DNA from: Burkholderiaceae bacterium
GTDB lineage: Bacteria > Pseudomonadota > Gammaproteobacteria > Burkholderiales > Burkholderiaceae_C
Length of the DNA stretch: 55,081 bases
NCBI GenBank assembly: GCA_004299095.1
Contig: SCQQ01000058.1
Span: forward strand, 1 to 55,081
Direction: 5' to 3'
The number at the start of each line of letters is the position of its first letter. Within the stretch, counting starts at the first letter, position 1. This document shows, one piece after another, positions 39,278 to 55,081 of this stretch. The translations under genes were made by a program, and so were the position numbers. A model generated the notes under the pieces. It was not told the origin of the DNA, did no database searches, and was given only the letters and a program-made list of their open reading frames with translations.

Positions 39278-40087
39278 ATGCCTCTTTCTTCTACTTCCCT
39301 GCAGCGTTGGCCCGGTGTCTGGAGGGCTGACGAATTGGCGCCTGCCGCGGGGGGCGTCATTTCCAGCGGTCGTGCGGTTCTGGATGCAGAGCTTCCCGGC
39401 GGCGGCTGGCCCCTGGGCGCGTTCATCGACCTGATGGTGGCCGCGGCCCATGCGCCCTGGCTGGCGTTGCTGGCGCCAGCGCTGTCCGCGCACATGCGCC
39501 ATAACAAAGGCGTACTGGCGCTCGTCGAGCCGCCGCACGAGCCATGCCTGCCGGCGCTGGCTGCTGCCGGCCTGCCGCCCGAGCGGGCGCTGTGGCTGCA
39601 CGCCAAGACGTTGCCTGAGCGGTTGTGGCTGGCCGAACAGGCGCTGGGCTGCGCCGGCGTGGCGGTCGTGCTAGCGTGGCTGCCGGGCGCACGCGAGGCC
39701 GATTGGCGCCGGCTGCACCTGGCCGCGGCGCGGCGCGTGGACGTCCTGTTTTTTGTGCTGCGGCCTTTGAAAGGGACGGGCGCTGCCGCCTGTGCGCCAC
39801 TCGGGCTTGCGTTTGACCTCGCTCCGGGACCGCGTGGGATCGCGGATCGGGCGGACAGCGGTTTGTTGCAGTTGCGCGTCGACATCCTGAAGCGCTGCGG
39901 CCCGCCGTTGGCCGCTCCGCTCTGGCTGCCCGCATGGAACCCGAAACTGAGCCGCTTGCTGGTGCCCGAAGCGGATCGCCGGACTGCTGCGCACATGGAC
40001 GCGACCGTGCTGCCGTTCCAGCCGCGCACGCCGCTCGTGCCTGGGGGCAACGATCATGCGCTGGATCGCCTTGCACTGGCCGTCTGA
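39278..40087 (+). CDS. imuA: SOS mutasome accessory protein ImuA
   Basis: About 269 residues from ATG 39278 (in-frame ATG 39248 lies inside the LexA box). ImuA is a RecA/SulA-like protein that bridges the polymerase subunits of the ImuA-ImuB-ImuC translesion complex and contacts RecA. The typical opening VWRADELAPAAGGVISSGRA and LDAELPGGGWPLGAFIDLMV, in which the ATP-binding P-loop of RecA has decayed, is visible, as is LWLHAKTLPERLWLAEQAL. The stop lies 32 bases inside imuB. With the LexA box it forms the first gene of an SOS operon. Confidence 0.9.
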   Translation: MPLSSTSLQRWPGVWRADELAPAAGGVISSGRAVLDAELPGGGWPLGAFIDLMVAAAHAPWLALLAPALSAHMRHNKGVLALVEPPHEPCLPALAAAGLPPERALWLHAKTLPERLWLAEQALGCAGVAVVLAWLPGAREADWRRLHLAAARRVDVLFFVLRPLKGTGAAACAPLGLAFDLAPGPRGIADRADSGLLQLRVDILKRCGPPLAAPLWLPAWNPKLSRLLVPEADRRTAAHMDATVLPFQPRTPLVPGGNDHALDRLALAV

Positions 40088-41474
40088 GCGCGAGCCGGAA
40101 CTGTCCCGCGAGGCATTGGCCTGGTGGGGCTTGCGCTTCACGCCGCACGTGGCTTGGGTGGACGAGGCGCTGTTGCTCGAAGTGGCCGGCTGCGAACGCT
40201 TGTGGGGCGGGCGGCGCGCCTTGCTGTGCCGGCTGGCCGGCTCCAGTCCAACGGATGCGCTGCCGCCGTGCATGGCGCGGGGCGCCACCAGCCTGGTCGC
40301 GCTGGCGCAATTGCGGTTGCGGGTGGCCGGACAAACGCCGGCGGCGCGGGCGCGCGACTTCCCCTTGTGGACCTTGAGTGCCGCGCGCCCGCACCGGCCT
40401 GTCCTGGAGCGCCTGGGCTGCCGCACCTGGGGCCAGGTCGATGCGCTGCCACGCGCGGGACTCGCACGGCGCTTCGGCACGGAACTGGGCCGCGCGCTGG
40501 ACGTGGCCCTGGGGCGCGCGCCCGACGTGTACCCGTGGACGGCATTGCCCGAGCGTTTCGAGCAAGCGCTGGATCTGCCGCAGCGCGCCGATTCCGCTCC
40601 AGCGCTGCTCTGGACCGGGCGCCGGCTGCTCGCGTTGCTGCAGCAGTGGCTGGCCGCGCGCGGGTGGGGCGTGCTGGCGCTGGAGTTGTCGTGGCGTTTC
40701 GATCAACTGCGCTTGAACGGCCGCGAGCTGCCGCCCGTGCAATCCCTGACATTGCGCACCGCCGAACCGATGCAGACCATGCGGCACATCGAGCGCCTGC
40801 TGGCCGAGCGGCTGGAGCGCACCGCGCTGCTGGCACCCGCGTGTTCCCTCGGCCTGCGCGTGCTGCAAACCGCGCCGTGGCGGCCGCAAACGACAAGCTT
40901 CCTGCCCGAAGACCACCCGCGCGGCGATCCGCTGCACGTTTTCGTCGAGCGCGCCAGCGCGCGCTTCGGCCCGGATTGCGTGCGCGCGGCGGTCGCTCGA
41001 AACGACCATCGCCTGGGTTGCCGGCAAGGCTGGCAAAGCGCGGCGCAGGCGCTGTTGCAGCGCAGGCAAGGGCAGGGCGTCTGCGCCGGTTCCAGACCTG
41101 CGCTTTCACGGGGCCGCGCCATGCCTGCGGCGGCTTCCGATGCCGGGGCATGGTCCGACGCGCTCAGCCCCACGTGGCTGTTGCGCCCGCCGCGCGCCTT
41201 GTCCGTGAAAAGTGGCCGGCTTTGTCACGAAGGACGCCCGCTGCATTGCGTGGCGGGCCCGTGCCGCGTCGAAAGCGGCTGGTGGACGGAGGCAGTGGCC
41301 GCGGCGGAGCCGGGCGGAGCGCCCGTGGCGCGCGACTATTTCGTGGCGCGGGACGCTGCTGGCGGGCTGCTGCTGATCTACCGCGAGCGCCCGGTTTCCG
41401 CTTCGCTCCGCCACGGCGCGGACGGTGCAACGACCGCTTCGTTGCGCTGGTTTCTGGAGGGGCTCTATGCCTGA
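40056..41474 (+). CDS. imuB: Y-family polymerase-like mutasome protein ImuB
   Basis: A 472-residue protein related to DinB/UmuC polymerases. In ImuB the catalytic acidic residues are lost and the protein serves as a hub holding the complex on the sliding clamp. The N-terminal region (MRWIALHWPSEREPELSREAL) and HVAWVDEALLLEVAGCERLWGG are recognisable, followed by the HhH-like LERLGCRTWGQVDALPRAGLARRFG and the little-finger part. It overlaps imuA by 32 bases and imuC by 8 bases, so all three are translated together. Confidence 0.92.
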   Translation: MRWIALHWPSEREPELSREALAWWGLRFTPHVAWVDEALLLEVAGCERLWGGRRALLCRLAGSSPTDALPPCMARGATSLVALAQLRLRVAGQTPAARARDFPLWTLSAARPHRPVLERLGCRTWGQVDALPRAGLARRFGTELGRALDVALGRAPDVYPWTALPERFEQALDLPQRADSAPALLWTGRRLLALLQQWLAARGWGVLALELSWRFDQLRLNGRELPPVQSLTLRTAEPMQTMRHIERLLAERLERTALLAPACSLGLRVLQTAPWRPQTTSFLPEDHPRGDPLHVFVERASARFGPDCVRAAVARNDHRLGCRQGWQSAAQALLQRRQGQGVCAGSRPALSRGRAMPAAASDAGAWSDALSPTWLLRPPRALSVKSGRLCHEGRPLHCVAGPCRVESGWWTEAVAAAEPGGAPVARDYFVARDAAGGLLLIYRERPVSASLRHGADGATTASLRWFLEGLYA

Positions 41475-44400
41475 GCTGTCGCGCAAGGAGGAAACCAAAC
41501 GGGCGGCGCGGCGGCGCGATGCGGCCAAAGTGGTGCGCTTGCCCGTGCGGACGCCGCCACGGCACGGGCCGCCGCAGGCCGCAGGCGTTCCCGCTTATGC
41601 CGAACTGCATTGCCTCACGCACTTCAGTTTCCTGCGCGCTGCTTCCAGTCCGGAAGAGCTGGTGCGGCGCGCCTGGGCGCTGGGCTACGCGGCCCTGGCG
41701 ATCACCGACGAATGCTCGGTTTCCGGCGTGGTGCAGGCGTGGCGTGCGCTGGTCAATCTGAAGGAAGAGCTCGGCTGCGGCGTCGGTTCGGCTGATCCGC
41801 TGCAACTCATCTACGGCAGCGAATTCCGCTTTGCCGGCCAAGGGACGCTGGTGGCGCTGGCGCGGGATCTGGAAAGCTGGGGCGATCTGTGCGCCTTCAT
41901 CAGCGCCTGCCGGCGCGCCGCAGCCAAGGGGCAGTACGCCTTGCCGCCGCTGGCCGATGCGCTGGCCGCGCTGCGGCACTGCGAGCGGCTGTGGGTGCCC
42001 GAGCAGAGAGAGCAGGCAGCGGCTTTACCGCGCGCGGAGGGAATTCGTGATACGCAACCCATCACCTCGGCCGACCCCGGCGCGTCCGCTTGCCGGCACG
42101 ACGCCGCGGCGGCGCAAGGGGCCGTTTTCGCTTCCTTGGCCCCGGAAATCGCGGCAGCCCGCATTCCATTGCTGGTCGAACTGCACGCCCGCATGGACGA
42201 CGCGCTCTGGATCGCCCACTTGCGCGCGGCGGCCGTTGCCAGCGGCTGCCCGCTGGTGGCCGCGGGCGGCGTGCTGATGCACATGCGCCGCGCCAAGCGC
42301 CTGCACGACGTCATAACCGCCATTCGCCTGGGCCGCAGCGTGGCCGACTGCGGTTTTGCGCTGCAGGCCAACGGCGAGCGCCATTTGCGGCCGCGCGAAC
42401 GACTGGCGCGGATTTATCCCGCCGGCACGCTCGCCGCCACCCTGGCCATCGCCGCGCGCTGCCATTTCAGGCTGGACGAAGTGCGCTACGTGTACCCGCA
42501 AGAGACCGTGTTGCCCGGCCTCACGCCCACCGAAACGCTGGCGCAGCTCACGCGCGAGGGCGCGGCCTGGCGCTTTCCGGAGGGCGTGCCGCCGCACATC
42601 CAGGCCTTCATCGCCAAAGAGCTGGCGCTGATCGCCGACTGCCGCTACGAAATGTTCTTCCTCACCGTGCACGACATCGTGCGCGAGGCGCGGCGCCTGG
42701 GCATCCTGTGCCAAGGCAGAGGCTCGGCCGCGAATTCGGTGGTGTGCTACTGCCTCGGCATCACGGCGGCCGACCCGCGCTTTTCGCATCCGCTGCTGGA
42801 GCGCTTCATCAGCCAGGCGCGGCGCAACGAGCCGCCCGACATCGACGTCGATTTCGAGCACGAGCGGCGCGAGGAAATCATCCAGTACATCTATCGCAAA
42901 TACGGCCGCGAGCGCGCCGCACTGGCGGCGAGCGTGATCACGTACCGCACGCGCAGCGCCCTGCGCGACGTTGGCGCCGCGCTCGGCGTGGACGCGCGCC
43001 TGGTGGATGCCGTGGCCGAGGACCACCACGGATTTGAAGAGGGCACGTGCGCACGCGGCATCGCGGAAAAAGCGCTGCAACTGAGCGTTGCGATCACGCC
43101 GAAGCTGATCGGGCTCTGGCTGGAGCTGGCAGCGCAGTTGCGCGGTCGCCCACGCCACCTGAGCCAGCACGTCGGCGGTTTCGTGCTGACGCAAACGCTG
43201 CTCATGCGCCTGGTGCCCATCGAGCCGGCGGCGATGGAGGGCAGTGCCGAAGAGCTGGGTGATGGGCCCTTTCCAGAAGAAGACGATCGCGCGGCACCAA
43301 CGGCCGTGGACGTGGGCGGCACGGATCTGACCCAGTGGCTCCCGCCACGGCCCGCGCTGCGACAGGTGATCCAGTGGGACAAGGACGATCTCGAAGCGCT
43401 TGGCTGGCTCAAGGTCGACATCCTCGCGCTCGGCATGCTGACCGCCATGCGCCGTTGCCTCGATTTGGCGTCCCGGTGGCGCGGCCAGCCGCTCACGCGC
43501 GCCGACATCACACCGGAAGACCCGGCCACCTACGCCATGATCCGGCGCGCCGACACCGTGGGTGTGTTCCAGATCGAAAGCCGCGCGCAAATAAGCATGC
43601 TCCCGCGCTTGAAGCCGACCACGTTCTACGACCTGGTGGTGCAGGTGGCCATCGTGCGCCCCGGCCCGATCACGGGCGGCATGGTGCATCCCTATCTGAA
43701 GGCGCGCGAGCGCCAGCGGCAGGGCTTGCCGATCGAATACCAGCGCTCGCGTTACGACCCACCAGGTCAACCGCCGCGGCTCGCCCAGGCGCTGGAGCGC
43801 ACGTTCGGCATTCCGATTTTTCAGGAGCAGGTGATGGAGTTGTCCATGCTGGCTGCGGGTTTCAGCGCGGCCGACGCCGACCGCCTGCGCCGCGCCATGG
43901 CGGCGTGGAAAAAGAAGGGCGGACTGGAGCCGTTTCGCGACAAGCTCCTGAGCGGCATGTCGGCCCGTGGCTACAGCGCCGAGTTTGCCGAGCACCTGTT
44001 CGCGCAGATCAAGGGCTTTGGCGACTACGGTTTCCCCGAAAGCCACGCCTACAGCTTTGCGCTGATCGCTTACGAAAGCGCGTGGCTCAAGTGCCATTGC
44101 TCCGGGGCGTATCTGGCCGCCATGCTGAATTCGCAACCCATGGGGTTTTATCGCCCGTCGCAACTGGTGCAGGACGCGCGCCGCCACGGCGTGGTGGTGC
44201 GGCCGCCCGACGTGGACGCGAGCGATTGGGACTGCACGCTGGAGCCCGCCGGCGGGGTCGGCTCAACCGCCGTTGCCGCGGGCGATGTTCCCGCCGCGCC
44301 AGCAGCGCGCCCCACAGTTCGCCTGGGCCTGCGCATGGTGCAAGGCCTGGCAGGAGCGGCAGCGGAACGCATCGTCGCGGCACGGGCCGCCGCGCCATTC

Positions 44401-45039
44401 GCCAGCGTGGACGACTTGGCGCGTCGTGCCGCGCTCGACGTGAAGGCGCTGGACCGGCTGGCTGCGGCTGACGCGCTTTCAAGCCTTGCGGGCCATCGTC
44501 GCCAGCAGGTGTGGCAGGCCGCCGCGCTAAAAAAAGCGCCTGAACTGCTGCGCGATGCACCCATTGCCGAGCCCGAGCTGCGCTTCAGCTGCGCACGCGA
44601 AGGTGAAGAAATCGTGTACGACTACGCCGCCCTCGGCCTCACGCTGCGGCGCCATCCGCTCGCGCTGTTGCGTCCGCGGCTGGCCCGCGCGCGCGTCAAA
44701 ACGGCCAGTGAACTGCGCGCCACGCCCAGTGGGCAACGGGTGCGCGCCTGCGGCATCGTCATCGGTCGCCAGCGCCCCAGCACGGCCAAAGGCACGATCT
44801 TCGTCGCGCTGGAAGACGAGACCGGGCAAGTCAACGTGATCGTCTGGAAAAGTGCGCGCACTGACGAACGCCAGCGCAATGCCTTGCTGCGCGCACATTT
44901 GCTGGCGGTCGACGGCCGCTGGGAGCGCGACAAGGACAGCGGTGGCCACGTGTGCCACCTGATCGCGCGGCGCTTCCACGACCTCACGCCCCTCTTGGGG
45001 CGACTCGCGGACTCCACGCAAAGCCGCGACTTCCATTGA
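41467..45039 (+). CDS. imuC: Error-prone DNA polymerase ImuC (DnaE2)
   Basis: A 1190-residue C-family polymerase that performs mutagenic translesion synthesis. The N-terminal PHP domain opens YAELHCLTHFSFLRAASSPEE. The polymerase core has QGRGSAANSVVCYCLGIT, the catalytic PDIDVDFEHERREEIIQYI and VGVFQIESRAQISMLPRLKP. The C-terminal OB fold (GTIFVALEDETGQVNVIVW) is typical of DnaE2. The start at 41467 was chosen because it follows CTGGAGGGG and overlaps the imuB stop by 8 bases; the longer open frame is not used. Loss of the clamp-binding motif is usual in this family. Last gene of the SOS operon. Confidence 0.97.
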   Translation: MPELSRKEETKRAARRRDAAKVVRLPVRTPPRHGPPQAAGVPAYAELHCLTHFSFLRAASSPEELVRRAWALGYAALAITDECSVSGVVQAWRALVNLKEELGCGVGSADPLQLIYGSEFRFAGQGTLVALARDLESWGDLCAFISACRRAAAKGQYALPPLADALAALRHCERLWVPEQREQAAALPRAEGIRDTQPITSADPGASACRHDAAAAQGAVFASLAPEIAAARIPLLVELHARMDDALWIAHLRAAAVASGCPLVAAGGVLMHMRRAKRLHDVITAIRLGRSVADCGFALQANGERHLRPRERLARIYPAGTLAATLAIAARCHFRLDEVRYVYPQETVLPGLTPTETLAQLTREGAAWRFPEGVPPHIQAFIAKELALIADCRYEMFFLTVHDIVREARRLGILCQGRGSAANSVVCYCLGITAADPRFSHPLLERFISQARRNEPPDIDVDFEHERREEIIQYIYRKYGRERAALAASVITYRTRSALRDVGAALGVDARLVDAVAEDHHGFEEGTCARGIAEKALQLSVAITPKLIGLWLELAAQLRGRPRHLSQHVGGFVLTQTLLMRLVPIEPAAMEGSAEELGDGPFPEEDDRAAPTAVDVGGTDLTQWLPPRPALRQVIQWDKDDLEALGWLKVDILALGMLTAMRRCLDLASRWRGQPLTRADITPEDPATYAMIRRADTVGVFQIESRAQISMLPRLKPTTFYDLVVQVAIVRPGPITGGMVHPYLKARERQRQGLPIEYQRSRYDPPGQPPRLAQALERTFGIPIFQEQVMELSMLAAGFSAADADRLRRAMAAWKKKGGLEPFRDKLLSGMSARGYSAEFAEHLFAQIKGFGDYGFPESHAYSFALIAYESAWLKCHCSGAYLAAMLNSQPMGFYRPSQLVQDARRHGVVVRPPDVDASDWDCTLEPAGGVGSTAVAAGDVPAAPAARPTVRLGLRMVQGLAGAAAERIVAARAAAPFASVDDLARRAALDVKALDRLAAADALSSLAGHRRQQVWQAAALKKAPELLRDAPIAEPELRFSCAREGEEIVYDYAALGLTLRRHPLALLRPRLARARVKTASELRATPSGQRVRACGIVIGRQRPSTAKGTIFVALEDETGQVNVIVWKSARTDERQRNALLRAHLLAVDGRWERDKDSGGHVCHLIARRFHDLTPLLGRLADSTQSRDFH

Positions 45040-45224: not shown

Positions 45225-45353
45225 GCTTCTCCACGTGCCGTAATTATCCGAGTCGGATTTTGTTCTGGCGGAGAGGACGACCGCCAAATATCGGCTTCAC
45301 GAGGACTCATGAAAAATCAAAACAAGCCTCGTAAACCGCATGAAATCTAGTTA

Positions 45354-45439: not shown

Positions 45440-46663
45440 ATGGCAAAAGCAATTACAGACAGGCAAGCGAAGGCAATCAAGCCGGGCTGCAAGCCCGTTG
45501 CGGGTGGTGTCACCGGGCTCACGTTGCAACCATCCAGCAGGGCGGGCCGGGGCAAGTGGAACCTTCGCTTTGTTTCACCAGAAACCGGCAAGCGACGCGA
45601 TATGGGACTGGGCGTTTATCCCGATGTGCCGGTTGCCGACGCGCTGGAAAAGGCGAAAGAGGCGCGACAGGCAATAGCCGCCGGGCGTGACCCTATCGGC
45701 GAGCGCGAGCGGCGCGCGGCAGTTCCCACCTTCGAAGAGGCGGCGCGCTTTCGCTGGGAGCAACTGGTTCCGAGCTTCCGCAACGCCAAACACCGGGCGC
45801 AGTGGTTTTCTTCGCTGGCGCACGTCCTACCGGCCATTGGTGCGATTCGGGTTGACGCACTCACGCCGCAACACTTTGCCGACGCCCTGGAGCCGATATG
45901 GCTGCAAATTCCGGAGACTGCGAGCCGTGTGAAGCAACGCTGCGCCGACGTCATGGCGACGTGCTGGGCGCAGGGGCACGTAAAAGGCAACCCGCTTGAC
46001 GTAGTCGATAGGCTGCTGCCCAAGCAATCGGCGCCCGTAGATCAGCACCAACCGGCCATGCCCTGGCGCGACGTGCCCGCCTTTGTCTCTGCGCACCTGG
46101 TCCGCGCACCCATCATCGGCGCACACGCTGCGCTGCTGTTCGCAATACTCACGGCGGCACGTTCCGGCGAAGTGCGCGGCGCGACGTGGGCGGAAATCGA
46201 CTTTACCGAGCGCCTATGGACAGTTCCGGCTGAGCGCATGAAGGCGCATCGCGCCCACCGCGTACCGCTGTCCGATGAAGCCGTGAAGCTGCTAGAGGCG
46301 CAGAAAGCCGCCAGAACGCCGCCGGCGGCCGCGCTGGTGTTTCCAAGCATGAAGGGCACGCCGCTTTCCGATATGGCGCTCACGTCGATTCTGCGCAGCG
46401 CTCACGCCAAGAGCGACACGCCCGGCCGCGTGGCGACGGCGCACGGCTTCCGCGCGAGCTTCAAGAATTGGGCCACCGATTGCGGCTTTGATGGCGAGAC
46501 TTCGGAGCGGGCGCTGGCACACACGATTGCAAACAAAGTGCGCGCGGCCTACGAGCGAACGACGCAACTCGAGGCCCGGCGCGCCATGATGAACCAATGG
46601 GCTGCGCACGTCATGGGACAAGCTGCAAACGTGGTTCCGCTGCGCGGCAAGCGACGGGCATGA
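45440..46663 (+). CDS. Tyrosine integrase, P4/DUF4102 type
   Basis: A 407-residue site-specific recombinase that inserts and excises the element. The N-terminal arm-binding domain has the DUF4102 pattern (ITDRQAKAIKPGCKPV, RRDMGLGVYPDVPVADA). The catalytic residues are Arg241 (LTAARSGEVRG), His335 and Arg338 (TAHGFRASF), His361 (RALAHTI) and Tyr371 (VRAAYERT). All are present, so the enzyme may be active. It is the first gene of the element and reads into it, as in P4-like satellites and related islands. A GC hairpin follows its stop. Confidence 0.95.
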   Translation: MAKAITDRQAKAIKPGCKPVAGGVTGLTLQPSSRAGRGKWNLRFVSPETGKRRDMGLGVYPDVPVADALEKAKEARQAIAAGRDPIGERERRAAVPTFEEAARFRWEQLVPSFRNAKHRAQWFSSLAHVLPAIGAIRVDALTPQHFADALEPIWLQIPETASRVKQRCADVMATCWAQGHVKGNPLDVVDRLLPKQSAPVDQHQPAMPWRDVPAFVSAHLVRAPIIGAHAALLFAILTAARSGEVRGATWAEIDFTERLWTVPAERMKAHRAHRVPLSDEAVKLLEAQKAARTPPAAALVFPSMKGTPLSDMALTSILRSAHAKSDTPGRVATAHGFRASFKNWATDCGFDGETSERALAHTIANKVRAAYERTTQLEARRAMMNQWAAHVMGQAANVVPLRGKRRA

Positions 46664-46673
46664 ATACCGGCAC

Positions 46674-46697
46674 GCCCCGCACCGGTCCTTGCGGGGC
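46674..46697. repeat. GC-rich hairpin after the integrase
   Basis: GCCCCGC (46674-46680) and GCGGGGC (46691-46697) form a perfect 7-bp stem with a 10-base loop, 10 bases after the integrase stop. There is no T-run, so it is a weak or Rho-dependent stop at best, separating the integrase from the cargo genes. Confidence 0.5.
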
Positions 46698-46763
46698 AAA
46701 GGCGACGGCCAAGGCGTAGAAGCGCCCCGACCGTCTGACCATCATCAAAACGGGAGTTTGAAA

Positions 46764-47261
46764 ATGGCTGAAGAGACTGTAACCGCTGAACAGAGCGTCG
46801 CATTGGCGGGGACCAACGTGCCGCTAGGGAAGGGCGCAGCTGAAATCGTGATGCGCCAGTGCCTGAGCTCCATAGCGCAGACGGTCGACTCGTTGATTGC
46901 CGAGTACGAACGAAACAATGACCCGGATGCCCCGTTCGAGGAACAGGACGCAAACGACGATGCGATTAATGCGCTGCTGCTGGTGCACGATGAAATCAGG
47001 CGTGCCGCCGCGTCCGATACCGCTATGGATCGAATCGTCGAGACCTGGTGGCGCATCCGTAGCGTGGTGGGCATGGTAGCGGCCACACACCCGGACGCCA
47101 GCAAGAGCGCCGGATACATAACCGAGGCGCTGCTGCGCGAGTTGCGGACCTATCCGGGTTTATGGTCGCACGTTGAATGGCGTGGAGAACACCTGGAGGC
47201 GCAAGTCGAGCGGGCAGTGGTCAGCGGCAGTGCGCTTGTTGGCACCGTGGCGCAACAGTAG
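46764..47261 (+). CDS. Hypothetical protein, element cargo (165 aa)
   Basis: The ATG at 46764 is preceded by GGGAG. The protein is acidic and mostly helical, beginning MAEETVTAEQSVALAG, with a central segment AEYERNNDPDAPFEEQDAND and WWRIRSVVGMVAATHPDASK. No signal peptide, membrane segment or known motif is visible. It is the first of three unknown genes lying between integrase and AlpA-like regulator, the position where P4-like elements carry variable cargo. It is followed 9 bases later by the next gene, so the pair is cotranscribed. Function unknown. Confidence 0.7.
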   Translation: MAEETVTAEQSVALAGTNVPLGKGAAEIVMRQCLSSIAQTVDSLIAEYERNNDPDAPFEEQDANDDAINALLLVHDEIRRAAASDTAMDRIVETWWRIRSVVGMVAATHPDASKSAGYITEALLRELRTYPGLWSHVEWRGEHLEAQVERAVVSGSALVGTVAQQ

Positions 47262-47270
47262 GAGGCAACC

Positions 47271-47576
47271 ATGCAAGAGCAAACACCGGCAAGCAACACG
47301 CCGCCGACCGCCGATATTCCGTTTGACCGTGAAAGTACGGCACGTGAGGCGCGCGACTTAACCGACCTTGTGCAGTGGATATGCGAGGCGCGCGACTTGA
47401 TAGACAGCATTCGTCAGGTTGCGGAGGTCTCCCCGCACGACGTGGGCGCTGGGCTGGATGCTTGGGATATTCCCATTAATTCGCCCGAATGGAACCCCAG
47501 GAGTGACGGCGGCCCGGCCAGTGGCCTGACGTGGCTACTGATGCACCAATGGCACTTAATCAAGTCGCTGGAATGA
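47271..47576 (+). CDS. Hypothetical protein, element cargo (101 aa)
   Basis: A 101-residue acidic protein with a strong AGGAGG site before its ATG. After a disordered start (EQTPASNTPPTADIPFDRE) it has a helical region AREARDLTDLVQWICEARDLIDSIRQ and a Trp-rich end. The helical region loosely resembles part of the preceding protein in composition, but I do not recognise a family. Short spacing links it to the 165-residue protein, so they may form a complex. Confidence 0.65.
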   Translation: MQEQTPASNTPPTADIPFDRESTAREARDLTDLVQWICEARDLIDSIRQVAEVSPHDVGAGLDAWDIPINSPEWNPRSDGGPASGLTWLLMHQWHLIKSLE

Positions 47577-47686
47577 CGGCGCGCGCTTGATTCAGATTCG
47601 CCAGCGCCTAGGGTAGCTCCCGAAAAGCCGCAAGCCCAGCGGCCCGGCGTTGGCTCCTTTCGCGTGGGCGGTGTTGAGGCGACGCT

Positions 47687-48316
47687 ATGGAAGATTTATC
47701 AGCTTGGGATTTTGCAGAAAACTTTTCGGGTGAAGAAGCTGCCGCCTTGATACTGGGCTTGCAACCTACCGGCCTTGCGCACAAGGGGCAAATCCAAGTT
47801 GTTTTACGCCGGATGGTGGATGATTATCATCGGGCTGTAGACTGCTTTCGCTACTACGGTTACGCGGCACCCGCCAAGCAAGCCCCAACCAACCTACTGA
47901 GTTACATGCTTGACGGCTGTATGACCTTTGCCATGGGTGACGCAAAAGCGGACGCCCAACTCTTGGAAACGCGGGGTTTCGAGGGGCAACGATTCGAGAG
48001 AGAGGAACTCACGCGTTGGTTATCGGCAATCGGTATGGCGTCACGTTATGCGTTCGACCGACCAACCGAGGCCAATGTAAAAACTCGGCCGAGTCCCTGG
48101 CCTTGGGGCGACTATGAAACGGGATTGCTGCGACACCTAGCTGCTGCCGCTGAGCGGTTTTGGATGGCGTATGACCCGGAAGATCCAGCTACGGCGAAAA
48201 CGAATGAAATCGTTGCCGAATGGCTGGAATCGCGAGGCGTTGCGAAGCGCGTAGCCGAAGTGATGGCGCAAATCCTTCGGGCTGACGGCTTGCGTACTGG
48301 CCCGCGTCTGGGCTAA
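47687..48316 (+). CDS. Hypothetical protein, AT-richer element cargo (209 aa)
   Basis: A 209-residue soluble protein. The N-terminus SAWDFAENFSGEEAAALILG is of a kind seen in unknown proteins next to integrases in many proteobacterial islands. A central region (LLSYMLDGCMTFAMGDAKADAQLL) and a charged C-terminal helix follow. By eye its third codon positions contain many more A and T than the surrounding genes, so it was probably gained separately. It has its own 110-base upstream gap. A phage-defence or replication-control role is possible from position only. Confidence 0.72.
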   Translation: MEDLSAWDFAENFSGEEAAALILGLQPTGLAHKGQIQVVLRRMVDDYHRAVDCFRYYGYAAPAKQAPTNLLSYMLDGCMTFAMGDAKADAQLLETRGFEGQRFEREELTRWLSAIGMASRYAFDRPTEANVKTRPSPWPWGDYETGLLRHLAAAAERFWMAYDPEDPATAKTNEIVAEWLESRGVAKRVAEVMAQILRADGLRTGPRLG

Positions 48317-48534
48317 TCATCCGCGCCCAGCAAACCCAGCACCGGCGCGGCTTCCGATGGTTATCCGCGCCCGTTCGCGCATCCGTGGCGCGATTGTCTG
48401 CGCCTATTTTTTCGACGCAACCATCCATAGCCTAAGCATCAAGCCGATTCAGCGCGGCTTGCGACGTAATCGGGGCATTTATTCGGCCTTGTCCACGGTT
48501 GCGCCAGCACCGCGCATTTTGGGAACTTGATGCT
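48317..48534. other. Gap upstream of the AlpA-like operon
   Basis: Two hundred and eighteen bases without a supportable gene. It should carry the promoter of the long overlapping operon that starts at 48535. I see a T6 run near 48411 but no stem convincing enough to call a terminator. Confidence 0.4.
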
Positions 48535-48762
48535 ATGAATGCTGCTGCAATCGAGCCGCGAACCGTTGCGGGTTTCATCCCGCTTCGGGGAGTGTGCAAC
48601 ACCACCACCAAGAGCAAGCCGACGATTTATCGCTGGGTGCGGGAGGGGATATTTCCGGCGCCCGTGAAGATTGGGCCGAACTCCGTTGCGTGGCGAACCG
48701 AAGACGTCCAAGCGTGGGCGCGTGATCCGCAGGCATGGCGGGAAGCGAGGGCCGCCCAATGA
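48535..48762 (+). CDS. AlpA-like DNA-binding regulator / excisionase
   Basis: A 75-residue protein with a MerR-like winged helix. The recognition pattern KSKPTIYRWVREGIFPAPVK followed by NSVAWRTEDVQAWARDP is the AlpA signature. In P4-like elements AlpA family proteins activate or act as directionality factors for the integrase. ATG 48535 was chosen; the frame is open from 48499. Its stop overlaps the next start as ATGA, beginning the chain of overlapping genes. Confidence 0.88.
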   Translation: MNAAAIEPRTVAGFIPLRGVCNTTTKSKPTIYRWVREGIFPAPVKIGPNSVAWRTEDVQAWARDPQAWREARAAQ

Positions 48763-48968
48763 CTGAGCGTTTCGCGCAAGACCACGTGCAAGGCGCCGCT
48801 GATGCGTTCCGCGCGGCAATAGCCGTTATCGCGTTATTCCGCCGCAATGCCGACCCCGCCACGGACTGGCCGGACGGTTTCGAGTTCACGCTGAAGACGC
48901 TCGACCAGTGCATGGAAGTTGCTTCCTACCACTTGGAACAAGCGCTCACAGAGAGGCCGATTCAATGA
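48759..48968 (+). CDS. Small hypothetical protein (69 aa)
   Basis: A 69-residue helical, acidic protein (MTERFAQDHVQGAADAFRAA ... HLEQALTERPIQ). Both ends overlap neighbours by exactly 4 bases, which supports the frame and start. No motif is recognised; a role in replication control or early element functions is inferred only from the operon. Confidence 0.7.
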   Translation: MTERFAQDHVQGAADAFRAAIAVIALFRRNADPATDWPDGFEFTLKTLDQCMEVASYHLEQALTERPIQ

Positions 48969-49297
48969 CCGGCCAAAGAAAAAGCGCCGCCGGCTGGGAA
49001 CCGGAAGGCGCTCTTCAAACTAACGTGCACGCCGATTCTACCTTGAAGAGCCCCAAGCAGGCGCGCGTTCTGGCTGCGCTTGCGTGGCGGCCAATCACCC
49101 GCAAGGAATGCGATGCCATAGCGCGCGCATCCAACGGCCCCGACGTGGTATTCAAGCTGCGCGGGCACGGCTGGCGCGTCGAAACCGAGCTTGTGGACTG
49201 CCGGGACTTTGACGGCCGTCAAAGTCGCTACGCACGGTATTGGCTGCACGATGCGGACAAGCCCCGCGTCCGCGCGCTGTTGCGGGAGGTGGAATGA
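48965..49297 (+). CDS. Small winged-helix-like protein (110 aa)
   Basis: After a disordered start, residues about 25-75 (SPKQARVLAALAWRPITRKECDAIARASNGPDVVFKLR) look like a winged-helix fold of the type found in prophage replication operons, ending GHGWRVETELVDCRDFDGRQ. The match is by pattern and not certain. Start and stop both overlap neighbours by 4 bases. It probably binds DNA and may help the adjacent primase. Confidence 0.68.
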   Translation: MTGQRKSAAGWEPEGALQTNVHADSTLKSPKQARVLAALAWRPITRKECDAIARASNGPDVVFKLRGHGWRVETELVDCRDFDGRQSRYARYWLHDADKPRVRALLREVE

Positions 49298-49560
49298 AAG
49301 ACACCGACGCCGTAGCCGCCGCCGCAATCGAGTGGAACCACACCCGACTGCGCCGCATCGCGGCAGCAAAGCGGGTGCCCGACGGCCTGTTCCACCCGGA
49401 CTACAACCGCGCCACGGCGGCGCGCGCATGGGCTTTGAAGGAAGAGGCCCGCGCCCTGGCCAAGCTGCGCAAGGCGTGCGCCGCCGCTGATCCGGCGCCG
49501 TTCACGATAGAAGCGGAGCTGGTGCCCCAGCGAGCCATCGGCTGGGAGGTGCACCCATGA
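49294..49560 (+). CDS. Small hypothetical protein (88 aa)
   Basis: An 88-residue helical protein rich in Ala and Arg (AAAAIEWNHTRLRRIAAAKR, then ALKEEARALAKLRKACAAAD). No domain is recognised. The GGGAGG sequence before its ATG and the exact 4-base overlaps with both neighbours support it as real. It stands directly before the primase-helicase. Confidence 0.7.
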   Translation: MKDTDAVAAAAIEWNHTRLRRIAAAKRVPDGLFHPDYNRATAARAWALKEEARALAKLRKACAAADPAPFTIEAELVPQRAIGWEVHP

Positions 49561-51764
49561 GCGGCCTGGACCGCGCGCACGCCGCGCTGCAAACCATCCC
49601 GGCCGACTTGCCGCGTGAAGATTGGGTAAGGGTTGGCATGGCCGCCCAGGCTGCAGGGCTTGAGTTCAAGGACTTTGACGATTGGAGCGCAGCAGCCGGC
49701 AGCTATGACGCTCGCGCCGCCCGCGACACGTGGCGCAGCTTCAGGCCCGACAAGGGCATCGGGCCCGGCACGCTCTACCGGCTGGCGGTCGAGCATGGTT
49801 GGAAAGCCGATGCGCCCCAAGCCCCGGCATATCCCCGCAGTACCCGAACGGAACCACGGGAGCCGAAACCACGCCCCGGCATGGCCCCTGCTGACGTGTG
49901 GGCGCGCTGCACACCAGCCACGAATACACACGGCTACATCGAAAAGAAGCGGGCCGCTGGCGTTCCGTTGGACGGCTTGCGGGCAGTGCCTGCGGGTGAC
50001 GTGCTGCGCATCGCTGGGCAGGCCGTGGCGGGCTTCCTGGCCGTCCCTGCGTACTCCGGCGGCGCGCTGCAATCGATCCAGTTCATCCCGCCAGAGGGCA
50101 AGAAACTCAACCTGCCCCGCGCGTCGATGGCGGGCGCATCGTTCACCGTGGGCGAGCCAGAGGCCGGCGCCCCGCTGTACCTGGTGGAAGGCATCGGGCA
50201 GGCGTGGGCAGTCTGGCAAGCAACCGGCCGCGCCGCCGTGGTGTGTTTCGGCTGGGGCAACGTAGGCACCATCGCCCGGCAATTGCGTCAGAAGGACGGA
50301 GCCGGCCGCCTGGTGCTGGTGCCCGACGCCGGCAAGGAGGCACAAGCGGAGCGCATCGCGCAAGAACTCGGCATCGCGACGGTTTCCATGCCAAAGGGTA
50401 GCCCCGCGAATTTCGACGCATGGGACTTGAAAGAGCGTGACGGCCCGGATGCGTTGGCCGCGCTGCTGGGTCAAGCCCAAGGCCCCAGGCCGCTTCTGGT
50501 GCCCGTATCCGTTGCGGACGTACTCACGCACCCAAGCCCGCCGCCGCGCTTCGTGTGGGACGGCTACGCGCCCCGTGGCGTGGTGACCTCACTCGGGGCA
50601 CATGGCGGCGTGGGCAAGTCGACGGTTGCGCTCATGCTGGCCGTGGCCGTAGCAACGGGTCGCCCGCTCTTTGGCGTGGCCACCGAGCGTTGCAATGTGC
50701 TGTTTGCGAGCTTCGAAGACTCGGGTGACGTGGTGCGCCACCGGCTCGGTTTCATTTGCAGGCAGTGGGAGATAGATCCGGCTGCGCTCTGCGCGCTGAG
50801 CATCGTTGACGGCACGGCCAATCCCGAACTGTTCACCGCCGAGCGGCGCGACGCGGGCGACGTGACGGCAAGCTACATCGAGCTGCGCAAGCTGGCCCGG
50901 GGCGCTGGCCTGGTGGTGGTCGACAACGCTTCGGACGCCTACGGGGCCGATGAAATCCAGCGCAGGCAGGTACGCGCGTTCATTCGCACGCTCACTGACA
51001 TCGCGAAGGAAAACGCCGCCGCCGTGCTGTTGCTTGCCCACGTGGACAAGAACACCAGCAAGCAACGCAAGGCAGAGGGTGGCGAGGGCTACTCGGGTTC
51101 GACTGCTTGGAACAACAGCGTGCGCAGTCGCTTGTTCATGACGCGCGACGAATCGGGCACGCTCACGCTGGAGCATCAGAAGAGCAATTTCGGCCCCATG
51201 CGCGAGCCGCTGGCGCTGGAATGGCCGCAGAACGAGCTTCCGCAAGTGTTGGAGTCGTTATCGCCCGTGGTGCAGGGCATCAGCGACAAGAACGATACGC
51301 GGGCGCTGCTGAAGCTGATCCATGAATTCAGCGAGCGGGGCGAATGGGTATCGAGCGGCACCACCGGCACGGCCAATGCAGCGCACTTGCTGGGCAAGGA
51401 ACCGAGCTACCCCAGGCGCAAGCCCGCCGAGACGTTCACGCTGCTGCGCAATGCCGAACGCAGCGGCTACGTGCAGCGCACCGAACACCGCACCAAACAA
51501 CGCAGGTTTCGGGAAGTTTGGCAACTCACGCCAGAGGGGGAAAACTTCGCCGGAATTCCGAGTGCGCCTATTGCGCCCATTGCGCGCCAATTGGTAACTA
51601 GCGCAACCGGCGCAGAGGGGGCGCGGGGTGCGCCCCTTTATTGCGCAGGGGGTATGGGGGAAAGAGCGCGCGCATCAAGTGGCGCGGGAAGTGGCGCACA
51701 AGGGGTGGCCGCTCACCCTGGTGCGGCTTTGGTAACTGGCGCACTTCTGGAGGCCGTCCCATGA
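49557..51764 (+). CDS. Primase-helicase: PriCT-2, Toprim and RepA-like ATPase
   Basis: A 735-residue replication protein. Residues 1-85 form a PriCT_2-like domain (PREDWVRVGMAAQAAGLEFK, GIGPGTLYRLAVEHGW). Residues about 120-305 hold a Toprim-type primase with Glu211 (YLVEGIGQAW), Asp257 (LVLVPDAGKE) and Asp287/Asp290 (NFDAWDL). Residues about 335-560 are a RecA-fold RepA-like helicase with Walker A GAHGGVGKST near 347-356, Walker B LVVVDNASDAYG and the VLLLAHVDKNTSK sensor. The C-terminal part resembles a winged helix followed by a low-complexity tail. It should start element DNA replication. The next gene overlaps it by 4 bases. Confidence 0.88.
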   Translation: MSGLDRAHAALQTIPADLPREDWVRVGMAAQAAGLEFKDFDDWSAAAGSYDARAARDTWRSFRPDKGIGPGTLYRLAVEHGWKADAPQAPAYPRSTRTEPREPKPRPGMAPADVWARCTPATNTHGYIEKKRAAGVPLDGLRAVPAGDVLRIAGQAVAGFLAVPAYSGGALQSIQFIPPEGKKLNLPRASMAGASFTVGEPEAGAPLYLVEGIGQAWAVWQATGRAAVVCFGWGNVGTIARQLRQKDGAGRLVLVPDAGKEAQAERIAQELGIATVSMPKGSPANFDAWDLKERDGPDALAALLGQAQGPRPLLVPVSVADVLTHPSPPPRFVWDGYAPRGVVTSLGAHGGVGKSTVALMLAVAVATGRPLFGVATERCNVLFASFEDSGDVVRHRLGFICRQWEIDPAALCALSIVDGTANPELFTAERRDAGDVTASYIELRKLARGAGLVVVDNASDAYGADEIQRRQVRAFIRTLTDIAKENAAAVLLLAHVDKNTSKQRKAEGGEGYSGSTAWNNSVRSRLFMTRDESGTLTLEHQKSNFGPMREPLALEWPQNELPQVLESLSPVVQGISDKNDTRALLKLIHEFSERGEWVSSGTTGTANAAHLLGKEPSYPRRKPAETFTLLRNAERSGYVQRTEHRTKQRRFREVWQLTPEGENFAGIPSAPIAPIARQLVTSATGAEGARGAPLYCAGGMGERARASSGAGSGAQGVAAHPGAALVTGALLEAVP

Positions 51765-52105
51765 TCGACGCACTCATCGCGGGCAAGCTCTACGCCCGGC
51801 CCCAGCCGCACACCGCCAAGAACGGCAATACCTTTGCAACGGCCAAGCTACGCGCCGCCATCGGCGAAGAGGCGCTGTTCGTCAACGTCATCGCCTTCGA
51901 AACCGGGGCAGTGGCTGCGCTGCTCGCATTGGACGCGGGCGACTCGGTAGCCGTCACCGGCAACCTGACGCCCAAGGTGTGGACCGCCAAGGACGGCCCG
52001 GCCCGGCCCGCCCTGGACGTGGTGGCCGCCCAGGTACTGACGCCGTACCACGTCACCCGCAAACGCGCCGCCGTGGGCGCTTCCACACGGCACCCCGAAG
52101 ACTAA
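51761..52105 (+). CDS. Single-stranded DNA-binding-like protein (OB fold)
   Basis: A 114-residue protein with the OB-fold pattern of phage SSBs: MIDALIAGKLYARPQPHTAK, then TFATAKLRAAIGEEALFVNVIAFE, then ALDAGDSVAVTGNLTPKVW and ALDVVAAQVLTPY. The acidic tail of housekeeping SSB is missing, as is common in element-coded versions. Its start overlaps the primase-helicase stop by 4 bases, and both would work at the element's fork. Here the chain of 4-base overlaps ends. Confidence 0.8.
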   Translation: MIDALIAGKLYARPQPHTAKNGNTFATAKLRAAIGEEALFVNVIAFETGAVAALLALDAGDSVAVTGNLTPKVWTAKDGPARPALDVVAAQVLTPYHVTRKRAAVGASTRHPED

Positions 52106-52116
52106 AGGAATTCGCC

Positions 52117-52980
52117 ATGCAGACATTCACCGAACGATCAATCGACGTCACCATCAATTGGGGCAAGGGCGACTATGGCGCCGAGCCCGGCCCCGACATC
52201 CTGCTGACCGGTCATCGTGTCCTGGCGCAAGTCGTTTACATCAATGGCGCACAGCAAGCGAGTGCCGACCTGCGCATCTATGGCATGACGTTGAACGAAA
52301 TCAACGAGTGCACCGGCACGAAGGTAAACGCCTACGCCGTCACGGGTAGCCGCATCCGTGTATCGGCCAGCACGGCCAAAGGCTCCAAGGCACAGATTTA
52401 CGACGGGCAAATCCTGCGCAGCTTTGGCGAATTCAACTCGCAGCCCGAGCCCTGCCTGCTGGTGTATGCCCAAGGCGCTGTGCTCGGCGCTGCCAAGCCC
52501 GTGGCCGCTCGCAGCTACGTCGGCGCGACGGACGCCGCTACGGTCTGCGCAGACATTGCCAAGAGCATGAATCTGGCCTTTGAAAACGACGGGGTTTCCG
52601 TGATCCTAGACAACCCCTATTTCTCCGGCACCGACTACACGCAACTGGTGGCCTGCACGGACGCGGCGAACATTGATTTTGCGGTCGACCGTGGCGTGCT
52701 GGCCATCTGGCCCAAGGGCAAGGCACGTAAAGCCGAGGTGCCGGTCATTGTGTCGCCGCAGACCGGCATGGTCGGCTACCCCGACATTGGCTCAGACCGG
52801 ATATACCTGCGCACGCTCATGAATCCCGACCTGGCCATCGGCAGATTGATTCGCGTGCAAAGCGACCTGATGCCCGCGTGCGGCGATTGGAAGGTCGTGA
52901 GCGCAATCCACAACGTCGAAAGCGAGCTGCCCGGCGGCGCATGGTTCACCGAAGTGCAGGCCGTAAAGGAGGTTGCGTAA
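52117..52980 (+). CDS. Phage baseplate hub-like protein
   Basis: A 287-residue protein resembling contractile-tail hub proteins (gp27/gpD/Mu P class). The N-terminal beta-rich region (SIDVTINWGKGDYG, LADLRIYGMTLNEINECT) and the module with AAKPVAARSYVGATDAATVC, CADIAKSMNLAFENDGV and VVSAIHNVESELPGGAWFTEVQAV fit the hub pattern. The ATG at 52117 has AAAGGAA before it. Its stop overlaps the spike gene by one base (TAATG). Sheath, tube, wedge and capsid genes are not next to it. Family assignment by eye is moderate. Confidence 0.72.
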   Translation: MQTFTERSIDVTINWGKGDYGAEPGPDILLTGHRVLAQVVYINGAQQASADLRIYGMTLNEINECTGTKVNAYAVTGSRIRVSASTAKGSKAQIYDGQILRSFGEFNSQPEPCLLVYAQGAVLGAAKPVAARSYVGATDAATVCADIAKSMNLAFENDGVSVILDNPYFSGTDYTQLVACTDAANIDFAVDRGVLAIWPKGKARKAEVPVIVSPQTGMVGYPDIGSDRIYLRTLMNPDLAIGRLIRVQSDLMPACGDWKVVSAIHNVESELPGGAWFTEVQAVKEVA

Positions 52981-53678
52981 TGAGCGTCCAAACCTTCCCC
53001 ACATTCGACGAACCGGCCACCGGCCTTGGCGAATACAGCAGGCTGCGCTTTGTGGTGCAACAGATTTTGTCCACGGTAGCCGGGGCCACCCTGGTGCGTG
53101 TGGTCGCTGTAACCAACTCGGGCGGCCTATCGCCCGTGGGCTTCATCGATGCGCAGCCCATGGTGAACCAGACGGACGCAGCGGGCCACGTGATGCCGCA
53201 TGGCGTGTTGCACAAGCTGCCCTACTTCCGGTTGCAAGGGGGTGCCAATGCCGTGATCCTCGACCCGCAACCGGGCGACATTGGGATCGCGGTCTTCGCG
53301 AGCCGTGACCTGTCCAAAGTGAAGGCCACCAAGAGCCAGAACGCACCGGGATCGAGCCGCATGTTCAGCATGTCGGACGGCCTCTACATCGGCGGGGTTT
53401 TGAACGGCACGCCGAGCCAGTACGTGCAGTTCAGCGCGGGCGGAATCACGCTCACGTCACCGGCGGTCATCACGCTGAACGCGCCCGAGTGCACCATCAA
53501 CGCGAACACCACCGTCAACGGCACTTTCTCGCAAGGCATGGGCGCTGCCGGGGGCGCAGCAACGATGCTCGGACCAGTCACCGTCACGGGCGACGTCACG
53601 GCGGGCGGCAAGTCGCTTACCACGCACGTTCATTCCGGCGTGCAGCCGGGCAGCGGCAACAGTGGGGGGCCGGTCTGA
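52980..53678 (+). CDS. Phage spike / baseplate assembly protein, Gp138-type
   Basis: A 232-residue protein. The N-terminal OB-like part has the Gp138 pattern (VNQTDAAGHVMPHGVLHKLP, FRLQGGANAVILDPQPGDIG, FASRDLSKVKATK). Repeating short beta segments follow (SPAVITLNAPECTINANTTVNG, GPVTVTGDVTAGGKSL), as in triangular spike shafts. The end HVHSGVQPGSGNSGGP has the HxHxG apex motif that binds iron in membrane-piercing tips. Start at 52980 shares a base with the hub stop, so hub and spike are made together. Membrane-piercing activity is inferred. Confidence 0.82.
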   Translation: MSVQTFPTFDEPATGLGEYSRLRFVVQQILSTVAGATLVRVVAVTNSGGLSPVGFIDAQPMVNQTDAAGHVMPHGVLHKLPYFRLQGGANAVILDPQPGDIGIAVFASRDLSKVKATKSQNAPGSSRMFSMSDGLYIGGVLNGTPSQYVQFSAGGITLTSPAVITLNAPECTINANTTVNGTFSQGMGAAGGAATMLGPVTVTGDVTAGGKSLTTHVHSGVQPGSGNSGGPV

Positions 53679-53698
53679 TCTATCAGCAGGGAAACACC

Positions 53699-54274
53699 AT
53701 GTCAAAGAAACGCAGCGCCGAGGGCTCCCGCATCTTGGCCGACCTCACAACCCGCTCGCTCGGTTCGGCGGGCACTGCGAAGCTGTACCTGCAGCACGGC
53801 GCCCCAACCAAGGGCACCTATCCCCTGGATGTGCTCGCGATGGAAGTCATCCAAGCTGGCCGGGAAGTGAACCGGGGCGACCTCTCGCGCCCCGAACAAA
53901 TGCTGGTGGCGCAGGCCGTGGCGCTCGATGCCATCTTCAACGAACTGGCCCAGCGCGCCATAGGCAGCGGGCACATGAAGCACCTGAACACCTACCTGAA
54001 GCTGGCGCTCCGGGCCCAAGCGCAAGCGCGGGCGAATGTCGAAGCGCTCGGGCTGCTGAAGAATCCGCAGCCCTACATCCGCCAGGCGAACATCGCCAAT
54101 CAGCAACAGGTCAACAACGGCGTGCCACCTGCGCGCACGGCCCAAATCAAATCCGAGCAATCCGAACTTTTAGGGGCCAGCAATGAACGGTTGGACATTG
54201 GAGCGCCGCAAGCGGCAATCAGAGGCGATTCGGCGCTGGAAACCGTGGGAGCGCTCAACCGGCCCGAGGACTGA
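53699..54274 (+). CDS. Conserved island protein (191 aa), unknown function
   Basis: A 191-residue mostly helical protein. The ordered core is YPLDVLAMEVIQAGREVNRGD, LSRPEQMLVAQAVALDAIFN and LKLALRAQAQARANVEALG, followed by NPQPYIRQANIANQQQVNNG. To my recollection similar proteins occur in many betaproteobacterial islands together with the kind of short gene that follows. CAGGGAA precedes the ATG. Its end overlaps the next gene by 92 bases in another frame. It may be structural or DNA-binding; I cannot assign it. Confidence 0.72.
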   Translation: MSKKRSAEGSRILADLTTRSLGSAGTAKLYLQHGAPTKGTYPLDVLAMEVIQAGREVNRGDLSRPEQMLVAQAVALDAIFNELAQRAIGSGHMKHLNTYLKLALRAQAQARANVEALGLLKNPQPYIRQANIANQQQVNNGVPPARTAQIKSEQSELLGASNERLDIGAPQAAIRGDSALETVGALNRPED

Positions 54275-54404
54275 GGCGGGCAAGGCCAAGACCTCGCGCA
54301 ATGGTTACAAGGGCGGCCAGCGTCAACGGCTGCGCGAGCTGCGCCGCATCATCAATGCCGAGATTCGGGCAGCGCGCGAGCTGGTGGATCGTGTAAACGT
54401 CTGA
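54183..54404 (+). CDS. Small basic protein with STGPRT motif (73 aa)
   Basis: A 73-residue Arg/Lys-rich protein. The string EAIRRWKPWERSTGPRTEAG with KTSRNGYKGG after it is a recurring pattern in small island proteins. It overlaps the 191-residue gene by 92 bases, with TAGGGGC before its ATG, so expression is probably coupled. Basic charge suggests nucleic acid binding. Function unknown. Confidence 0.72.
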   Translation: MNGWTLERRKRQSEAIRRWKPWERSTGPRTEAGKAKTSRNGYKGGQRQRLRELRRIINAEIRAARELVDRVNV

Positions 54405-54418
54405 ACAACGGGGACACC

Positions 54419-54745
54419 ATGAAGAAGCTCACCATCCTGGCGCTTGCACTTGCGTGCGGGAGCGCCTTCGCAAACCCGGCGGGCCATAGGTGCATGGAGC
54501 TTGGGCTGTACGCGCAGGCGGCCGCGTGGAATCGCAATTCCGGCAACACGCCCCATATTGCCTACGCCGCGCTGCGAGGGGTTCCCATTGGCGACTATGG
54601 ACCGATGGACGATCCGGCGCTCAAAAGCCTGATCAACGAGGTGTATTTCTCGCACGCCCTGGAGCGCACCACGCCGCCCCAAGTGTTCGACGCCTACTTT
54701 GGCGTGTGCACGGGACGCATCAAACCGATGATGCCGCTCAAGTAA
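54419..54745 (+). CDS. Small exported protein, unknown function
   Basis: A 108-residue protein with a typical signal peptide (MKKLTILALALACGSAFA, cleavage before NPAG). The 90-residue mature part has two cysteines (HRCMELG and FGVCTGR) that could form one disulfide. CGGGGA precedes the ATG. It is the last recognisable gene of the element and lies 14 bases after the small basic gene. A secreted product at this place could alter the cell envelope against other phages, but this is only a guess. Confidence 0.7.
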   Translation: MKKLTILALALACGSAFANPAGHRCMELGLYAQAAAWNRNSGNTPHIAYAALRGVPIGDYGPMDDPALKSLINEVYFSHALERTTPPQVFDAYFGVCTGRIKPMMPLK

Positions 54746-54822: not shown

Positions 54823-54970
54823 ATCCATTGCTGCGCACCCTGCGTTTCCGCAGGCTGACAATCGTCTCCTCAAAATTGAGGCGACGCCCAAACTGCGCGA
54901 ATCAACGCAGTTTCCCATTGGGGCCGCTGCAGCCACCTGCCAACGTGGGGAAGAATGTGCGGTTGGCCAA

Positions 54971-55016
54971 CGACAATTATCTTGACCGGTCGGCGACAAC
55001 TATCTTGAGCGGTTGA
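54971..55016. mobile_element. 23-bp tandem repeats, probable terminus of an insertion sequence
   Basis: Two adjacent 23-base copies (54971-54993 and 54994-55016) share 19 positions, with the common core CGACAA-N-TATCTTGA-N-CGGT. Repeated short direct sequences at the tip followed by a transposase reading inward are usual for IS21-type elements. A strong ribosome binding site ends the window, so a transposase may start just outside. The family is inferred from layout only. Confidence 0.4.
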
Positions 55017-55081
55017 TGCCCACGCGCGGGAGGCGTCAGGCGGTCGGGTTCTAGAGTGGCTCGCCTCTGCAGAAGGAGGCA

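Follow-up and report, generated by a model that had tools for sequence, protein, structure and literature searches.

The window, by which we mean the whole stretch of DNA analysed here, is the complete 55,081-base-pair (bp) contig C47 (SCQQ01000058.1) of the Burkholderiaceae bacterium assembly GCA_004299095.1. Its right-hand part holds an integrated element, hereafter element 1, in which a replication module is followed by genes for a baseplate hub and a tail spike, and which we interpret below as a phage satellite; a second such element, element 2 (locus L003 on contig C87), lies in the same genome (L, C and G numbers are our labels for loci, contigs and genomes). From position 45440 on, all named genes of element 1 lie on the plus strand, in the order integrase, small genes, AlpA, primase-helicase, single-strand DNA-binding protein (SSB), hub, spike, 191-amino-acid (aa) protein and 108-aa protein.

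45266..45279, no strand: left attachment site, a 14-bp copy of the tRNA-Ser(GGA) 3' end; the identical 14 bp occur at L130:1881 (contig C103), at the 3' end of the tRNA-Ser gene 1881-1970.
45440..46663, plus strand: tyrosine integrase (PF00589, 5.6e-18; phrog_1).
46764..47261, plus strand: 165-aa protein, function not assigned; 43% identical counterpart in element 2.
47687..48316, plus strand: 209-aa protein, no family above the cut-off.
48499..48762, plus strand: AlpA-type regulator/excisionase (PF05930, 1.4e-10).
49294..49560, plus strand: 88-aa conserved element protein, 63% identical in element 2 and present in L090 and L221.
49557..51764, plus strand: primase-helicase (PriCT_2 and AAA_25).
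51761..52105, plus strand: SSB (PF00436, 1.8e-6), overlapping the primase stop.
52117..52980, plus strand: baseplate hub of the E217 gp41 / phi92 gp137 family (PF22759, E217_GP41, 3.2e-9; phrog_196, 8.7e-44; profile matches to Protein Data Bank (PDB) structures).
52980..53678, plus strand: tail spike of the E217 gp43 / phi92 gp138 family with an HxH apex (PF18946, GpV Apex, 4.6e-7; PF18352 N-terminal domain, 4.4e-6; PDB profile matches).
53699..54274, plus strand: 191-aa protein whose family recurs in related elements, sometimes adjoining tail genes.
54183..54404, plus strand: 73-aa open reading frame (ORF; WTLERRKRQ...), by eye like ORFs of related elements.
54419..54745, plus strand: 108-aa protein with an export-like N-terminus (by eye), 90% identical in element 2.
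54964..55081, no strand: left end of an insertion-sequence-like repeat at the contig break, common to the ends of C20, C86 and C11, with a 6-bp TGCGGT duplication common to C103.

The first-pass annotation, made from the letters alone, had proposed the order integrase, AlpA-like regulator, primase-helicase, SSB, hub and spike, and this order is confirmed by family matches and by profile comparisons with solved structures. It had the content of the element right and its extent only in part: the left boundary lies at about 45266, at the 14-bp match to the tRNA-Ser 3' end, the window is the entire contig, and further genes at 53699-54274 and 54419-54745 follow the spike. A hub profile built from 41 sequences and a spike profile built from 38 were searched against solved structures. 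The hub profile matched the phi92 gp137 hub (3e-15), the E217 hub gp41 (4.3e-14) and the Pam3 hub, and the spike profile matched the E217 spike gp43 (1.8e-12), phi92 gp138 (2.1e-6), a gp45, which we take to be the phage Mu protein, and a baseplate protein V, presumably that of phage P2; the phage name E217 on the matched structures is likewise in part our assumption. By these profiles, the predicted hub and spike belong to the E217/phi92 tail-tip families. Myophages of the E217/phi92 type and the phage contigs L142, L145 and L220 encode hubs up to 47.5% identical to the satellite hub and spikes 44-61% identical to the satellite spike (aligned set), and their hub and spike genes are adjacent, as in the satellite; they differ in having further tail genes around the pair. 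The satellite spike lacks 20 alignment columns that at least half of its phage relatives fill, the gap falling after residue 176. The genes of element 1 are tightly packed: the primase and SSB genes overlap, 11 bp separate SSB from the hub, and hub and spike share base 52980. The hub-spike overlap amounts to 1 base in the window and to 4 bases in element 2 and in the phage contigs L137 and L142.

Element 2 is complete, about 12.1 kilobases (kb) long and surrounded by host genes, and it is flanked by a 48-bp direct repeat at the 3' end of tRNA-Lys(TTT), from 4616 to 16736. Its hub and spike are the sole tail genes found in it. Its integrase and its Toprim and DUF3987 replication genes differ in kind from those of element 1, and the SSB-hub-spike block is 84% identical in DNA between the two elements, with 90% for the 108-aa gene; the hubs are 88% and the spikes 87% identical. 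The ratios of nonsynonymous to synonymous substitution rates (dN/dS) between the elements are 0.184 for SSB, 0.146 for the hub, 0.122 for the spike and 0.155 for the 108-aa protein, compared with 0.37 and 0.53 for two faster-evolving genes. By this measure, the hub and the spike are under purifying selection.

Elements 1 and 2 were examined by family scans of proteins and by tblastn with the tail and capsid genes of three phages; capsid, portal, terminase, sheath, tube and wedge genes were not detected, in agreement with the first reading of the window. Nor was a tape measure (family scans in element 1, tblastn in both elements) or a tail assembly chaperone (detectable by family scans only) found in either element, and PADLOC returned no anti-phage defence match among 10 proteins. 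Hub-spike pairs also form the tips of contractile injection systems, and the pair might accordingly be imagined as a lone spike or contractile device, or as cargo of a type VI secretion-like system, acting as a bacteriocin or effector. We regard this earlier suggestion as very improbable: no tube, sheath, baseplate wedge or effector was found in either element, and the sequence kin of both proteins are myophage tail tips.

In viral contigs, 507 stretches matched the patterns of the spike search and 489 of them encode a relative. Among the best 80 of these, which were analysed, sheath, tube, wedge gp47 or capsid genes lie near the spike in 79, and the remaining one is a 4.3-kb piece with a tape measure, another tail gene, hub and spike. 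Neither the SSB nor the L011 hub found a relative when searched against viral contigs. Hub searches of host genomes were positive for 4 of 399 members of the family, 9 of 399 of the order, 2 of 369 of the class and 3 of 29 of the genus, the source genome being counted each time. None of the five loci from the family search (the window, L003, L011, L012 and L013, the last on a contig of just 10.7 kb) has a sheath, tube, wedge or capsid match, and each of the nine order and class loci (L026-L034) has at least one such match. The genus search added two loci: L220, where wedge genes accompany hub and spike, and L219, a 6-kb piece containing a hub plus a single additional tail gene. When the family sample was searched with the spike, it yielded the source genome and four weak matches to the C-terminal part (G128, G164, G150 and G024; E 2e-9 to 2e-4); three of these four loci were inspected and showed no hub or other tail match with the queries used.

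A decayed myophage could have left hub and spike behind as remnants in a trimmed prophage, a process with which the adjacency of the two genes in phages would be compatible, and at L012 a hub is indeed decaying, having lost part of its N-terminus and its reading frame. In the two elements described here, however, the same block is under purifying selection beside different integrases and primases, the pair lies only 11 bp behind SSB, and the plan is common to repeat-bounded relatives of 5.8-15.3 kb. The trimmed-prophage alternative raised in the first-pass annotation is weakened by this combination of selection, operon context and recurrence, and we consider it improbable.

The right end of element 1 was approached through the repeat in which the contig stops, which starts at 54964. 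The final 118 bases of C47 recur at the ends of contigs C20, C86 and C11, and contigs C113, C30 and C103 open with a similar inverted end of that repeat. By eye, 6-bp duplications match three of the four left repeat ends to the three right ends one to one, pairing C47 with C103 (TGCGGT), C86 with C113 (AGAGCA) and C11 with C30 (TCCCAG), with C20 left without a visible partner. From these ends and duplications the repeat looks like an insertion sequence, a transposase not having been searched for. On C103 the repeat is followed by a 288-aa protein without Pfam match, a DUF1902 protein, the tRNA-Ser gene and then host-like genes. Because of the shared 6-bp duplication and the 14-bp attachment repeat, element 1 very likely continues on C103 up to tRNA-Ser, and if the contigs are so joined it measures 11,467 bp without the insertion. 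The remaining head and tail genes of a prophage might have been expected just beyond the contig end; none was seen on this likely continuation when its ORFs were inspected and its two element genes compared with Pfam. Element 2 carries the main case independently of the link to C103.

Both elements encode an integrase and their own replication genes, are bounded at tRNA sites (48 bp at tRNA-Lys, 14 bp at tRNA-Ser) and lack a complete virion set, the features by which we class them as satellites. They integrate at tRNA genes, carry excision and replication genes and, behind SSB, keep hub and spike genes that are intact and under selection; these were the only virion genes found. In the reading that we think probable, element 1, about 11.5 kb long once the insertion sequence is subtracted, is an integrated phage satellite that builds its own hub and spike into the tail of a helper phage. 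Infection by, or induction of, a helper myophage would lead the satellite to excise and replicate with its own primase and SSB, and hub and spike would be produced along with the replication proteins. The two proteins would then substitute for their helper counterparts in the growing tail, and the satellite DNA, packaged into the helper head, would leave in chimeric-tail particles. Possible gains are control of passage through the recipient envelope, escape from defences aimed at the helper tail, and fewer helper particles. If this is true, a hub-spike satellite outside Vibrio, together with relatives carrying other delivery parts, would make tail-tip replacement a recurrent satellite strategy, and the element would offer a simple system for asking whether a private tip serves entry into the recipient, evasion of anti-tail defence or damage to the helper.

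A precedent exists in the PLE satellites of Vibrio cholerae. In purified PLE11 virions, the tape measure and hub of the satellite replace those of the helper ICP1, and deletion of the tape measure cuts transduction by ~99.9% in PLE11, 96% in PLE1 and 99% in PLE4, according to the accessible text of PMC12987554 (2026). According to that text, PLEs are the first known case of a satellite that alters tail assembly, earlier satellites being known to remodel heads or packaging and to borrow tails, and a figure legend mentions cf-PICIs with putative tape measure genes (PMC12987554). Like the present elements, PLEs are small integrated satellites that encode only some of the tail parts, a baseplate hub among them. 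Unlike them, as far as the accessible text describes, PLEs have a tape measure, a tail assembly chaperone and, in some cases, a hub, whereas the present elements have hub and spike with neither tape measure nor chaperone found, occupy other hosts and use a different replication module (PMC12987554). In the open-access literature, from the portions of articles available, satellite-coded tail parts were found reported only in PMC12987554 (bioRxiv preprints and most subscription papers lay outside this scope), and the word "spike" is absent from its main text. On these grounds, a hub and spike without tape measure, on another replication plan, are a new form among chimeric-tail satellites. The tip replacement suggested in the first-pass annotation is the best-supported reading and has an experimental precedent in PLE (PMC12987554), with helper, excision, packaging and incorporation being the steps that we infer.

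Two further groups of satellites share parts of the plan. PICMI, in the accessible text of PMC10803314, also combines int, AlpA and primase, and the DUF3987 of element 2 is a primase family of the PICMI model, which takes DUF3987 or DUF5906; the PICMI prototype differs in having six genes (int, alpA, prim and three of unknown function) and in adjoining fis in Vibrionaceae. The present elements lie at tRNA genes and carry tail-tip genes, and the element 1 primase is of the PriCT_2 plus AAA_25 type. P4-like satellites likewise have an integrase, AlpA and their own primase-helicase, and the primase of the present element is of another type than that described in the accessible part of PMC8628076. 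A scan of the element proteins, from which most window ORFs of up to 110 aa were excepted, gave no match to the P4-like psu, sid or delta, a model for each of the three being unconfirmed.

Hub and spike could instead serve sabotage, as decoys that jam or misdirect helper tail assembly and protect the host population and that are not built into satellite particles. Tail assembly is already the target of satellite-borne defences, namely Tai in PICIs and P4-like elements (PMC11364771) and Rta in PLE11 (PMC12987554), and a hub alone, as in L011, could act as a decoy; in the accessible text of these sources, however, Tai and Rta are not described as copies of a hub or spike. The apex domain is retained in the spike, both genes are under purifying selection, and the neck, tape measure, hub-like and spike-like genes of the element-like contig L282 resemble an assembly kit, all of which argues against a decoy. 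We judge sabotage unlikely, though less so than a prophage remnant.

Several points weigh against incorporation of the satellite hub and spike into a helper tail. As no tape measure or chaperone was found, unlike in PLE, the hub and spike would have to achieve incorporation by themselves. A hub with an adjoining spike was found in 0 of the 398 other family genomes; the gene order sought elsewhere recurs in element 2, which has the same SSB-hub-spike arrangement, and the pair within one such element is shown in the source genome only among those sampled. No resident helper was seen, the genome having no match to the L027 sheath (a search with no positive control) and no further hub. No helper or packaging signal is known.

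The origin of the hub was examined in a tree of 60 hubs, in which the four satellite hubs require three label changes. The window and L003 hubs are placed among phage hubs, on a long branch, and the satellite spikes are nested in a phage clade in a quick tree. Since a constraint placing the four satellite hubs in a single clade was rejected (p-AU 0.011), at least two captures of hub genes by satellites are supported, with a long-branch warning for L013 and L011, whose hubs form long branches in the tree. Telling in the other direction, a single clade of the window, L003 and L011 hubs was not rejected (p-AU 0.225).

Related elements were sought through the SSB, which turned up at 59 places in 49 of 299 family genomes; 43 SSB loci, covering 44 of the 59 places, were examined. 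Integrase, AlpA, primase, Toprim or DUF3987 queries matched at 21 of the 43, and the other 22, with no element-query match, lie by eye among host genes, which rules out SSB alone as an element marker. Among the 21 element loci, hub and spike occur in two (the window and L003), a tape measure and hub in one (L013; phrog_2276 and phrog_196), a tape measure in L101 (phrog_28) and capsid-like genes, by eye, in L100. At L080 (9496-13178) and L092 (11301-15197), SSB is followed by two large genes, one matching the endolysin family phrog_90 (wall-cutting), and by a DUF5681-like protein; the large genes may encode internal ejection proteins suited to a podophage-type helper. The other 14 of the 21 gave no tail match with the tail queries used here and by eye. 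L011 is a small element with the hub alone.

Sixteen loci, L003 included, were tested for direct repeats. Repeats of 26-87 bp flank L011, L067, L069, L072, L073, L079, L087, L090 and L103, with a called tRNA gene at seven of the nine, and L092 is flanked by two adjoining repeats of 16 and 20 bp at tRNA-Thr. Four of the 16 loci have no repeat, and L070 has one of only 16 bp, away from a tRNA gene. The repeat-bounded relatives range from 5.8 to 15.3 kb and share the plan of the present elements.

The family of the 191-aa protein was found at 11 viral-contig loci, ten of which were mapped. L282 and its near-copy L279 carry, downstream of a helicase, genes for a neck protein, a tape measure, a hub-like protein, a spike-like protein and the 191-aa protein, with no capsid, sheath or tube seen among the ORFs of the 16 kb examined; L278, L280 and L281 are parts of the same locus. 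L275 has a 1693-aa tape measure after an AlpA-like gene, and the remaining 191-aa loci have no adjoining tail gene. A role of the 191-aa protein as small terminase was considered, and its gene neighbours give no support to it.

Tentatively, these loci may represent a broad satellite class in this bacterial family, in which a single position downstream of the replication genes receives exchangeable DNA-delivery kits, acquired on several occasions from dissimilar phages. The kit variants would be hub-spike, hub, tape measure, tape measure-hub, and internal virion proteins with wall-cutting domains. Were this possible but doubtful reading correct, the satellite would set the route of DNA entry into the next cell, whichever head and tail tube it borrowed.

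Some further loci touch on these elements. A satellite-like element with AlpA-like, primase, SSB-like and 191-aa family genes lies at L276 (IMGVR_UViG_2851299803_000001, near 4628-8219), on one viral contig with L145, a hub-spike-type myophage. In Methylobacterium, contig locus L004 has terminase-like, hub and tape measure genes, and L009, on plasmid NZ_CP155002.1 (12035-18490), has spike, gp46, hub and tape measure in altered order; neither has a sheath, tube, wedge or capsid match. L087 adjoins genes resembling a phage lysis cassette. A third, incomplete element of the source genome, L221 (G000:C104, 1849-5434), contains an integrase-like gene (by eye), AlpA, the 88-aa protein and the first 36 SSB residues.

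Synteny neither confirms nor refutes the C47-C103 link, because dnaE2 is followed by other genes in genus mates and the tRNA-Ser flank is variable. In the empty-site search for element 1, the genes after dnaE2 in genus mates included alaS, by eye. The tRNA-Ser region is present in 25 of the 29 genus genomes, and its flanks vary between them by eye. Two results count against the link: dnaE2 and the tRNA-Ser region are ~0.39 Mb apart in genome G1153, and 13 of 14 genus-mate tRNA-Ser loci had a comparable flank, with 0 of the 13 matching window 1-45440. The 3' side of tRNA-Ser (L286-L299) is variable and is probably an integration hotspot, and L291 has a gene there resembling a phage head-tail joining gene. 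To the left of element 1, at 39335-45039 of the window, lie three genes resembling an imuA-imuB-dnaE2 mutagenesis cassette (named by eye).

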